Virus record (IMG/VR): IMGVR_UViG_3300042310_000081
Span: 1-33,878 of that record
From: a virus
Length of the DNA: 33,878 nt
Strand: one strand, 5' to 3'
Shown here: one piece after another, positions 3-33,256 of the stretch
Numbering within the stretch: the stretch's first letter is position 1
How the letters are laid out: every line of letters starts with the position of its first letter
Notes under the pieces: model-generated
What the model saw: the letters and a program-made list of their open reading frames with translations, nothing else
Database searches by the model: none
What the model was told of the DNA's origin: nothing
Made by a program: the position numbers and the translations under genes

Positions 3-239
3 ATTGCTCCAGCACTTCATCTTTATGAAGGTGAGTTAAAGGCTGTTTCGTTTTTACCTATGGGTAATGAAACATTTCCGCAACAACCATACAATAATAT
101 TACAAGAGAAGAATATAATTCTTACGTAGGCAAAATTGCAAAAATTGATTGGTCTGCAATTTATGATGGCGTAGAAAATCTGGAAGCACAGGGTGAGGCT
201 TATTGCAGCACAGACGCTTGTGAAATCAAACTATACTAG
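3..239 (+). CDS. nrdJ: Class II (adenosylcobalamin-dependent) ribonucleotide reductase, C-terminal end (partial)
   Basis: The reading frame is open from the window edge (codons from base 3) to TAG at 237-239, giving the last 78 residues of a protein. It contains a run like VSFLPMGNETFPQQPYNNIT, close to the segment that precedes the tail of monomeric, B12-dependent ribonucleoside-triphosphate reductases. The protein ends in YCSTDACEIKLY, a C-X4-C pair near the C-terminus, matching the swinging redox cysteines that re-reduce the active site in the Lactobacillus-type enzyme. The enzyme reduces ribonucleotides to deoxyribonucleotides in the cytoplasm for phage DNA synthesis and needs adenosylcobalamin. 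The next gene starts 9 bases downstream, and a corrinoid adenosyltransferase lies three genes on, which supports the cofactor assignment. Catalytic domains lie outside the window, so the class call rests on the C-terminal sequence and context. Confidence 0.8.
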   Translation: MAPALHLYEGELKAVSFLPMGNETFPQQPYNNITREEYNSYVGKIAKIDWSAIYDGVENLEAQGEAYCSTDACEIKLY

Positions 240-248
240 GGGGTATAA

Positions 249-704
249 ATGAAAAAAATATTAGCATCATTAGCAATTTTTATAGCAGTTGCAGCAGTGC
301 TGTTTTCTATAGATAAACCAAAAGATAACTGCATAAACCTTTATGTTGATTATGGAGTTTTAGATAATCAAACAAAGTTAGAAAAATGTGTGGAATCATC
401 TAGCAGCATTCTTGCTTTAGATGTTTTAAAACAAGCCAATCTTAAAATAGAAGGTACCAAGAAATATGGACTAGGAGTAGTTTGTAGAGTTAATGGGTTG
501 CCAGATGAAAAGGTAGAGTCTTGTGAAGTTATGCCACCCGCAGAAGCATATTGGGCAATCATAATAAAAGAAAAACAAGTTATTCCGTTTCCTAAAAAAG
601 AGTGGGGATGGGGACAACTTGCAGTAGATCAACAATATTTAAATTCAGGAGACTCAGTTGGATTGGTTTGGACTGGTCCTAAAGGAGAGTTAAAGTTTCC
701 ATGA
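249..704 (+). CDS. Secreted DUF4430-like (transcobalamin C-terminal-like) protein
   Basis: A 151-residue protein with an N-terminal signal or anchor: MKK, then hydrophobic residues to about 20, with no lipobox cysteine. The mature part has four cysteines (28, 47, 79, 92), fitting disulfides outside the cytoplasm. The pattern CV...ALDVLKQA (47-63), CRVNGLP (79-85), C92, PPAEAYW (96-102) and GDSVGLVW (134-141) matches the extracellular DUF4430-like domain seen in actinobacterial secreted proteins and in the C-terminal domain of animal transcobalamin/intrinsic factor. The start follows a G-rich ribosome site (239-243), and the stop overlaps the next ATG (ATGA). It lies between a B12-dependent reductase and a corrinoid adenosyltransferase, so I infer a role in cobalamin binding or uptake at the cell surface. 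The domain is also found in proteins not proven to bind B12, so the ligand is unproven. Confidence 0.66.
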   Translation: MKKILASLAIFIAVAAVLFSIDKPKDNCINLYVDYGVLDNQTKLEKCVESSSSILALDVLKQANLKIEGTKKYGLGVVCRVNGLPDEKVESCEVMPPAEAYWAIIIKEKQVIPFPKKEWGWGQLAVDQQYLNSGDSVGLVWTGPKGELKFP

Positions 705-865
705 AAGTTGCATATAAAAAATTCAATAACGTAGTGCAGTTTCCTATACAAAAAAGAAAATCTAGAACTGCTGATTATATAGTTCAACTAACTATAAATC
801 TTGTAGCACTGTACATAGCAAACAGTATTACTATTGATATTTGGCGTTCTTTGACGGGACACTAA
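701..865 (+). CDS. Small hypothetical protein, possible single membrane segment (54 aa)
   Basis: A short frame from ATG at 701 to TAA at 863-865. Its start shares bases with the upstream TGA (ATGA) and its stop shares a base with the ATG of the adenosyltransferase (TAATG), so translation would be continuous through the whole block. It fills an otherwise empty 160-base gap, which is the main reason to believe it. The product has a basic first half (QKRKSR at 17-22) and a moderately hydrophobic second half (about 26-48, YIVQLTINLVALYIANSI), possibly one membrane-associated helix. I do not recognise a family. It may serve mainly to couple translation to the next gene. Confidence 0.55.
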   Translation: MKVAYKKFNNVVQFPIQKRKSRTADYIVQLTINLVALYIANSITIDIWRSLTGH

Positions 866-1359
866 TGGTTCACCTAACTCGTATTTATACAAAGACTGGC
901 GATGATGGAAAAACTTCTACCGCCACGAATGAGCGAATAGACAAAAGCAGTGATTTAATTGAGGCAATTGGAGCGGTAGATGAAGCAAACTCTGCTATAG
1001 GAATGGCAACTGAGTTTCATAATGACATTATAGATAGAATACAAAACGATCTATTTGATTTGGGGGCAGAACTTTCTGGCGCTCCAACAATCGTAATATC
1101 AGAAGCAAGAATTACTCATTTAGAAAATATTATTGATGACTATAACGAACATTTAGCGCCACTTCATTCTTTTGTCCTACCTACTGGGGCTATTCATAAT
1201 GCAAGAACTGTTGTTAGAAGAGCAGAGCGTCAGGTTTGGAAAGTAGAGGGTATAAATCCAAACATTGCAAAGTATTTAAACAGGCTTTCAGACTTACTGT
1301 TCGTAATGGCAAGATACCACAACAAGGGTAACGAAAAGTTATGGGTTCCTAAAAATTAG
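865..1359 (+). CDS. PduO-type ATP:cob(I)alamin adenosyltransferase
   Basis: Transfers the 5'-deoxyadenosyl group of ATP to cob(I)alamin, giving adenosylcobalamin, in the cytoplasm; the family is a homotrimer. Family motifs are all present in order: the N-terminal ATP-binding strand IYTKTGDDGKTS (7-18), IEAIGAVDEANSAIG (32-46), FVLPTGA (103-109), ARTVVRRAER (113-122) and YLNRLSDLLFVMAR (137-150). At 164 residues it is slightly shorter than the usual 180-200 but looks complete. I chose ATG 865 because it overlaps the upstream stop as TAATG and places the ATP motif at the normal distance; a TTG at 841 would add eight residues unlike the family. It is the last gene of the cobalamin block, and a promoter for the next unit begins directly after it. 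The natural client is the phage's own B12-dependent ribonucleotide reductase. Confidence 0.92.
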   Translation: MVHLTRIYTKTGDDGKTSTATNERIDKSSDLIEAIGAVDEANSAIGMATEFHNDIIDRIQNDLFDLGAELSGAPTIVISEARITHLENIIDDYNEHLAPLHSFVLPTGAIHNARTVVRRAERQVWKVEGINPNIAKYLNRLSDLLFVMARYHNKGNEKLWVPKN

Positions 1360-13592: not shown

Positions 13593-14288
13593 ATGGCAAC
13601 AACCGTTTATAAAAATAAAATAATCAAACTAGTTGATGGCACAGAACTAGACATTGTTCCGTTAAAAATAAAATATTTGCGTGAGTTTATGGAAGCGTTT
13701 GAAGATGTTAAAACTGCTAAAGATGATGATGAAGCCATAGATTTTTTAGTTGAGTGTGTAAGAATTACAATGAAACAATATTATCCAGGTATAAAATTAA
13801 CAAAATCTGATGTAGAAGATAGCCTTGATCTACCAACCATATACACAGTATTAGATATTTCTGCTGGTATAAAGATTAATCAAAAATCTGAAGAAACAGT
13901 AAAAGACCAAGCAACAGATAGTGGCTCAAACTGGTCAGAGTTAGACCTTGCCAAGATTGAGTCTGAGGTATTTTTACTGGGTATATGGAAAGACTACAGA
14001 GAATTAGAAGAGTCTTTATCTATGCCAGAATTAATTGCAACCCTCTCAAGTCGTAGAGAACTTGACTATCAAGAAAAAAAATTCTTGGCTGCAATTCAAG
14101 GAGTAGATTTAGATAAACAGTCTGGATCTGAGAGGGGACAAAAAGAATGGGAAGACATGAAGGCTAGAGTCTTTAGTCAAGGCAAAGCAAAAGACGGTAA
14201 TGACATTCTGGCTCTTCAAGGACAAAATGCTAGGAGTGCAGGGTTTGGTATTGGCATGGGCTTAGATTACGAAGATTTAACAAAATAA
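13593..14288 (+). CDS. Long tail assembly chaperone (G-T fusion-like)
   Basis: A 231-residue protein between tail tube and tape measure, where tail assembly chaperones lie. Residues 1-105 (MATTVYKNKIIKLVDGTELD, LREFMEAFEDV, LVECVRITMKQYYPG, DLPTIYTVLDISAGIKI) are paralogous to the whole of the next gene. Residues 106-231 add a charged C-terminal region (FLLGIWKDYRELEESLSMPE, SSRRELDYQEKKFLAAIQG) like the T part of a lambda G/GT pair, which recruits tube subunits to tape-measure-bound chaperone. Here the extension is in one continuous frame, so no frameshift is needed. Start at 13593, with a leaderless-type promoter. The family is diverse, so the call rests on position, length and the paralogy. 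Confidence 0.72.
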   Translation: MATTVYKNKIIKLVDGTELDIVPLKIKYLREFMEAFEDVKTAKDDDEAIDFLVECVRITMKQYYPGIKLTKSDVEDSLDLPTIYTVLDISAGIKINQKSEETVKDQATDSGSNWSELDLAKIESEVFLLGIWKDYRELEESLSMPELIATLSSRRELDYQEKKFLAAIQGVDLDKQSGSERGQKEWEDMKARVFSQGKAKDGNDILALQGQNARSAGFGIGMGLDYEDLTK

Positions 14289-14345: not shown

Positions 14346-14675
14346 ATGGCAACAACTACGTATGAGGAAACTACTCTTACACTAATTGATGGCACAAAGG
14401 TTACAGTACGTCCTCTAAAAATCTCTCTACTTCGTCCGTTTATGAAGAAGTTTGAGGGTGTGGGAGCGGTGGCGGAAGATAACGGCAAGTCTATGGACAT
14501 TCTTATGGAGTGTGTACAGATTGCAATGAAACAATACAAGCCAGAACTCTCTGAAGACGTAAAAAAACTAGAGGAGAATATTGATCTCCCAACAGTTTAC
14601 AAGATCGTAGAAGCAGCATCAGGTATTAAACTTGCTGAAGTTTCAGACGTTCTTGGCGTAACTATGGCTGAATAA
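14346..14675 (+). CDS. Short tail assembly chaperone (G-like paralog)
   Basis: A 109-residue protein directly before the tape measure. It aligns along its length with the first half of the preceding gene: shared MATT.Y start, DGT, VRPLKISLLRPFMKKFEGV against VPLKIKYLREFMEAFEDV, MECVQIAMKQYKPEL against VECVRITMKQYYPGI, DLPTVYKIVEAASGIKL against DLPTIYTVLDISAGIKI. It stops where the long protein continues into its extension, so it corresponds to the short G form that coats the tape measure. It has its own consensus extended -10 and strong ribosome site, consistent with the need for an excess of the short form. The duplication is seen; the division of labour is inferred from lambda-type phages. 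Confidence 0.75.
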   Translation: MATTTYEETTLTLIDGTKVTVRPLKISLLRPFMKKFEGVGAVAEDNGKSMDILMECVQIAMKQYKPELSEDVKKLEENIDLPTVYKIVEAASGIKLAEVSDVLGVTMAE

Positions 14676-32728: not shown

Positions 32729-33256
32729 ATGAGCGAAAAAATATTTACTTCTTTGAATGACAACTCAACAATTGTTGATGTCTTTATGCAAAGACCATCA
32801 AAGTATATGATGTTGTTATCTTTTGCACAAGAAATATTAAGAGAAGATTCTTTTTTATCTAAACAAGATAGAGAACTAATTGCAACATTTACATCAAATT
32901 TAAACGGTTGTAAATTTTGTACTGGGTCACACAAAGTCTTTACAATATCAGTAGGTTTTCCAGAAGAAGAAGTTGATCTTATATTATCTAACAATTATTC
33001 TGGGCATAGACTTGAAAGTATTTTAAATTACGTTAAAAAATTAACCATAAGTCCTTCGTTAATTACAAAAAAAGATGCACAAGACGTCTTTGATGCTGGA
33101 TTTTCTGAAGAAGAGTTAAAAGATGCAATTGCAGTATGTGCTGCTTTTAATTTATTTAATAGAATTGTTGAAGGTCATGGGATTCAAGAAAATAGTGAAA
33201 CTTGGGATCCTTCAGCAGAACAAATAAATAAAAATGGATATGACAGAAGATACTAA
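32729..33256 (+). CDS. AhpD/carboxymuconolactone decarboxylase-like redox protein
   Basis: A 175-residue all-helical protein with the AhpD-family active site E-X11-C-X2-C-X3-H: E49, then C61, C64 and H68 in NGCKFCTGSHK. A later NRIVEGHGI (about 144-152) is typical of the peroxidase-related branch. In AhpD the CxxC pair cycles between dithiol and disulfide to reduce a peroxiredoxin or peroxide; whether this one acts on peroxide or as a general thiol reductant cannot be told from sequence. It follows AAGGAA at 8 bases and lies between a membrane protein and the ssDNA-binding protein. I infer protection of the infected cell or redox support during DNA synthesis. This is probably a host-derived accessory gene. 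Confidence 0.85.
   Translation: MSEKIFTSLNDNSTIVDVFMQRPSKYMMLLSFAQEILREDSFLSKQDRELIATFTSNLNGCKFCTGSHKVFTISVGFPEEEVDLILSNNYSGHRLESILNYVKKLTISPSLITKKDAQDVFDAGFSEEELKDAIAVCAAFNLFNRIVEGHGIQENSETWDPSAEQINKNGYDRRY

Follow-up and report, generated by a model that had tools for sequence, protein, structure and literature searches.

Many aquatic phages encode class II ribonucleotide reductases (RNRs), and PduO-type adenosyltransferases use cob(I)alamin and ATP to form adenosylcobalamin (AdoCbl). In L. delbrueckii, genes of both kinds belong to the nrdJ-cbrS-cbrT-pduO cluster, described together with an ECF transporter importing cobalamin (Rempel et al., PMC5997447). A B12-producing host has been assumed for the cobaviruses (PMC6775973), and a host capable of B12 synthesis or assimilation for viruses encoding the ribonucleoside-triphosphate reductase RTPR; enhancement of B12 uptake by the virus during infection was raised in the latter study only as a possibility (PMC10547690). 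In a large collection of freshwater isolates, auxotrophy for cobalamin was reported to be more frequent than that for any other vitamin (PMC12381374). A search of the open-access literature, outside which most subscription journals lie, revealed no earlier description of a phage with the gene set presented here.

The window, i.e. the whole stretch of DNA analysed, comprises 33,878 nucleotides of a linear virus contig, which also carries phage genes coding for a portal protein, a DnaB-like helicase, a primase, a single-strand binding protein, and a probable prohead protease. A carboxymuconolactone decarboxylase/AhpD-like protein with a CxxC motif (PF02627, E 2e-9) is encoded at 32729-33256, between the genes of the primase and the single-strand binding protein. 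A paralogous pair of genes immediately preceding the tape-measure gene (13593-14288, 231 aa; 14346-14675, 109 aa) possibly codes for tail assembly chaperones.

The cassette is located on the plus strand and consists of the 3' end of an RNR gene (3-239, 78 residues; the remainder extends beyond the window), an open reading frame for a predicted exported or membrane-anchored protein of 151 aa (249-704), a small open reading frame of 54 codons (701-865), and a gene for a 164-aa PduO-type ATP:cob(I)alamin adenosyltransferase (ATR) of compact phage form (865-1359). Nine bases (240-248) separate the RNR gene from the second gene, which is joined to the small open reading frame by an ATGA overlap (701-704); the latter and the ATR gene share a TAATG overlap (863-867). 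This layout, including gap and overlaps, agrees to the base with the first-pass annotation of the window, which had proposed that the phage boosts the supply of its own reductase cofactor. That proposal is supported by the identities of RNR and ATR and by the co-occurrence of the genes in related phages, and we consider it likely that the locus is a cofactor-supply module which captures, activates and uses B12 for the phage's own RNR; capture of cobalamin, the import step and a benefit for infection are inferences.

As judged from its sequence, the product of the open frame at 3-239 is the C-terminal part of a monomeric class II, AdoCbl-dependent RTPR. It matches positions 660-724 of the 724 positions of the RTPR model TIGR02505 (E 1.5e-6), as well as phrog_367 (E 5.8e-11). 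The 3' end of the frame encodes ...AYCSTDACEIKLY, a C-X4-C motif that forms the redox tail C-STDA-C, and the C-terminus is YCSTDACEIKLY. That the upstream gene codes for a B12-dependent reductase, as had been claimed from this fragment, was verified on the complete gene of a related phage (L003, 5345-7375, 676 aa), whose product has a tail 99% identical to that encoded in the window and which is located directly upstream of the same cassette. The complete protein scores 357 bits against TIGR02505, above the equivalog cut-off of 340, and aligns with the L. leichmannii RTPR (1l1l) across most of its length, identifying it as an AdoCbl-dependent RNR. Five cysteine columns of active site and tail (129, 375, 386, 666, and 671 in L003) are common to all five phage RNRs compared, a set that takes in an RNR of only 27% identity. 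Glutaredoxin genes (PF00462), NrdH-like on inspection, occur near the cassette in two related phages (L380, 7267-7494; L366, 4244-4468); their products are possible reductants for an RNR.

Identification of the last gene as that of a PduO-type corrinoid adenosyltransferase was likewise borne out, since its product exceeds the cut-offs of both PF01923 (E 5e-49; 167 bits, cut-off 24) and TIGR00636 (154 bits, cut-off 108). The closest PDB chain is PduO of M. tuberculosis (2g2d/8d32), with which the motifs TGDDG, VRRAER, and NRLSDLLF align. A first genome scan with the RNR as query found no relative, and the ATR alignment was used instead. The closest cellular ATR genes, at best 53% identical, are those of mostly freshwater Actinomycetota including Ca. 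Planktophila versatilis, and in the ATR tree the phage proteins branch at two or more distinct positions within or beside freshwater Actinomycetota. ATRs of GenBank phages, mostly from unannotated records, are at most 42% identical to that of the window. Short stretches present in cellular relatives are missing from the window type of ATR, which forms a long branch (1.54) in the tree, so altered activity of the compact phage form is possible; its activity is inferred from the family only. By sequence comparison, the phage demonstrably encodes members of a B12-using and of a B12-activating enzyme family. A gene for an S-adenosylmethionine decarboxylase-like protein recurs in the vicinity of the ATR gene in several cassette phages (L211, 4989-5369, PF02675; similar open reading frames in L206, L231, L387, and L410).

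The 151-aa protein has a hydrophobic stretch at its N-terminus and four cysteines, C28, C47, C79, and C92, which are invariant among 22-38 phage relatives and also conserved in the aligned cellular homologues. Sequence searches of Pfam, NCBIfam and the PDB yielded no usable family; a match to CDC14 (E 0.13) was dismissed as chance. Two AlphaFold models (pLDDT 71 and 82) returned the same top group in Foldseek searches. For the model with pLDDT 82, ranks 1-16 against the PDB were exclusively DUF4430 (3u7z), transcobalamin or intrinsic factor, with probabilities of 0.97-1.00 and E values of 1e-3 to 3e-2, albeit at modest TM-scores of 0.41-0.46 by query and 0.56-0.68 by isolated domain. A fold search of BFVD gave no convincing viral match. 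The designation "DUF4430-like" in the first-pass annotation thus holds for the fold and fails for the sequence family, as PF14478 (DUF4430) matches neither the window protein nor any of 21 aligned relatives: the models support a DUF4430/transcobalamin beta-domain fold in a protein that is not a PF14478 member by sequence. The protein is a candidate for a surface cobalamin-capture protein, with cobalamin binding deduced solely from its fold and gene neighbourhoods.

The 54-aa protein, for which Pfam and NCBIfam contain no family, shows, on inspection, one apparent membrane helix, and its C-terminal motif DIWRSLTGH is conserved. Its gene directly follows the gene of the exported protein in most loci, and its pN/pS of 0.25-0.37 lies within the range of the four cassette genes (0.00-0.38), all of which are under purifying selection. 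In one phage (L183), the ATR gene is absent and RNR, the exported protein and a small open reading frame with the WRSLTGH end are retained, so the motif cannot merely reflect the ribosome-binding site of the ATR gene.

From scans seeded with ATR and with the gene of the exported protein (referred to as DUF in the following), 111 distinct viral loci, i.e. all loci fetched, were classified. Co-occurrence in related phages, a check proposed together with the initial annotation, was found in the form of 59 distinct IMG/VR loci with the order RNR-DUF-ATR. The 68 interior loci, located away from contig ends, comprise 38 with RNR-DUF-ATR, 16 with DUF-ATR, three with ATR-DUF, one each with RNR-ATR-DUF and RNR-DUF, and nine with ATR alone. 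ATR was adjacent to 58 of the 59 interior DUF genes and DUF to 58 of the 67 ATR genes; these fractions lean towards linkage because of the way the scans were seeded. An RNR gene was adjacent in 40 of the 68. Among the minority of DUF-ATR cases without adjacent RNR in which a distant one was looked for, two have an RNR gene elsewhere on the same contig (G338, and L365/L445, which share a contig name). Linkage is retained at DUF identities as low as 46%, and the cassette occurs in two genomic settings, the structural and the replication region. Several cassette phages carry an ATR of other origin according to the tree, one (L224) keeps the set with the 27%-identical RNR occupying the usual position, and another (L380) has a shuffled gene order with the RNR still adjacent.

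Not every phage with an RNR of this kind has the cassette, as a test of that idea showed. Among 69 loci from the wider clade that were retrieved with the RNR as seed and had sufficient flanking sequence, only one carries it beside the RNR gene, indicating that phages of this clade usually manage without a cassette at the RNR. GenBank phages yielded no match to DUF, and the phages with the nearest RNRs in GenBank, DSL-LC01 and mycobacteriophage Gaia, have neither DUF nor ATR beside the RNR gene. The cassette thus is an accessory of some lineages.

The weakest link of the original proposal was the claim that the secreted protein is concerned with B12. Besides the fold, independent support came from its cellular homologues, which a profile search detected in 30 of 297 genomes of the class that contains Ca. 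Planktophila. In three complete genomes of 1.2 Mb, an AdoCbl/cobalamin riboswitch (RF01482, 61 and 60 bits; RF00174, 38 bits) is located about 50-75 nt upstream of the DUF homologue; in two of the three it is the sole cobalamin riboswitch detected. The third has a second one before nrdH-nrdI-nrdE-nrdF (names assigned by inspecting translations). The nrdHIEF genes form the operon of a B12-independent reductase. At this locus (L355; G233:C1:248500-258500), in a host-like 1.2-Mb genome in which a class II RNR is also present, B12 appears to switch between reductases. Gene order around gcvT is shared between the three genomes and Planktophila, and GcvT identity is 61%, suggesting that they are close relatives. 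Ca. Planktophila versatilis itself has, at the matching chromosomal place (L354, 4956-8676), the one cobalamin riboswitch found in it, followed by genes for a SCO2322-family protein, a CbiQ-like T component, an ATPase, and a likely S-component. Compared with the three related genomes, the SCO2322-family protein takes the place of the DUF4430-like one, i.e. exported proteins have been swapped at one B12 locus. The same ECF transporter is found nearby in 26 of the 30 cellular homologue loci, eight of which also have metH beside the DUF homologue (MetH identified by TIGR02082, 1344 bits), and cobalamin riboswitches were detected in nine of 18 ECF-type loci searched. No protein in 15 freshwater genomes matched PF14478 over the cut-off; DUF4430 thus is not a general trait of the hosts they represent. 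Further support is provided by a bacterial operon: a Bacilli genome (L340) encodes, in one gene run, an RTPR (759 bits), an ECF S-component (PF12822), a DUF4430 protein (PF14478, 73 bits), and PduO (PF01923). Another Bacilli locus (L341) contains DUF4430, S-component and PduO, and an S-component-like gene adjoins DUF4430 in several more.

The RNR link might be secondary, if ATR and DUF served to raise the general B12 status of the host, to the benefit of its own NrdJ and MetH. Such a role would account for the 16 DUF-ATR and three ATR-DUF interior loci without adjacent RNR, for NrdJ-type class II RNR sequences in all 13 host-like genomes of freshwater relatives, and for the larger Actinomycetota genomes, where the DUF homologue lies near metH and not near an RNR. 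However, adjacency of an RNR gene in 40 of 68 interior loci, persisting in the shuffled order and with the replaced RNR lineage, and the joining of RTPR, DUF4430 and PduO in the bacterial operon are not what this explanation leads one to expect, and we regard it as unlikely, though not negligible. It is rather improbable that the exported protein merely borrows the fold for another surface role, be it superinfection exclusion, receptor masking or the like, and that RNR and ATR are the sole functional pair. A ligand cannot be deduced from a similar fold alone, there is no DUF4430 sequence match, and binding data are lacking; yet the homologues occur behind cobalamin riboswitches and beside ECF transporters and metH, Bacilli DUF4430 proteins are associated with S-components and in some cases with PduO and RTPR, and the 16 best PDB fold matches all belong to DUF4430, transcobalamin or intrinsic factor. 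That unrelated neighbours are held together by descent and linkage is hardly credible, for although most cassettes come from one related phage group with conserved neighbours, four gene orders (RNR-DUF-ATR, DUF-ATR, ATR-DUF, and RNR-ATR-DUF), ATRs replaced from separate origins, a replaced RNR, two genomic settings, linkage of divergent DUF genes, and purifying selection speak against it; neutral hitchhiking was rejected because of the shuffled orders and replacements.

The most likely hosts of the cassette phages are freshwater Actinomycetota, as inferred from the relatives of ATR and DUF and from whiB-type genes (PF02467), which are located beside the cassette in related phages (L206, 6368-6703; L358, 6653-6955). 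WhiB is an actinobacterial family, so these genes support actinobacterial hosts; no host is proven.

Following the preferred reading, a B12 supply module for the phage RNR, the DUF4430-like protein would hold scarce cobalamin or another corrinoid outside the infected cell, perhaps with the 54-aa membrane protein as its anchor or partner, and would hand it over to an ECF-type importer of the host. The phage ATR would turn the imported corrinoid into AdoCbl, to be used by the phage RNR in providing dNTPs for phage DNA. No importer gene was seen in the phage cassette, and the module probably relies on that of the host. No cobalamin riboswitch was detected at gathering score in the window or in three related phages (L003, L061, L081), nor by a permissive search of the L003 cassette, and no structured leader was found before the DUF gene (fold z-score 0.16; no Rfam match). 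In contrast to the DUF homologues of related host-like genomes, which are under cobalamin riboswitch control, the capture protein thus is probably made at any B12 level, which is suggested but not shown by these searches.

Lake phages with the cassette are probably equipped with tools of their own for obtaining a vitamin in short supply. The cassette names genes that could bring about the viral enhancement of B12 uptake left open previously (PMC10547690), and its carriers probably infect abundant freshwater Actinomycetota, in an environment with widespread cobalamin auxotrophy (PMC12381374). Moreover, riboswitch, operon and fold evidence connects an uncharacterised DUF4430-like family with cobalamin.

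Compared with known systems, the cassette phages share a B12-dependent RNR with cobaviruses (PMC6775973), RTPR-encoding virioplankton (PMC10547690), Gaia, and DSL-LC01; the latter two differ in the lack of DUF and ATR beside the RNR gene. The exported protein resembles the beta domain of transcobalamin and intrinsic factor (5no0, 5np4, 2bb5) in predicted fold, and 5np4 is an isolated beta domain with cyanocobalamin bound; however, the phage protein lacks the alpha domain and its identity to these proteins is only about 13%. A homologous exported protein is encoded in the actinobacterial ECF loci (L254-L280), many of which have cobalamin riboswitches, whereas the phage locus is devoid of T, A and S components and of the riboswitch, but additionally has ATR and RNR. 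At the riboswitch-preceded ECF locus of Ca. Planktophila versatilis, the exported protein is of the SCO2322 family instead of DUF4430-like. Like the phage locus, the nrdJ-cbrS-cbrT-pduO cluster of L. delbrueckii unites an AdoCbl-dependent RTPR, PduO and a part for B12 uptake in one run. The Bacilli operon matches the phage set in RTPR, DUF4430 (in the phage by fold, not by Pfam) and PduO, but has an ECF S-component where the phage has the 54-aa one-helix protein. As an operon with equivalent contents exists in bacteria, the capture-activate-use logic is not new to biology; since the nearest relatives of both ATR and DUF of the phage are actinobacterial genes, the phage set nevertheless looks separately assembled. 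On balance, we lean towards regarding it as a viral vitamin-acquisition system of its own, in which a displayed transcobalamin-like protein, an ATR and an RNR were brought together independently of the bacterial operon and without a riboswitch, for use in B12-starved auxotrophic lake bacteria.
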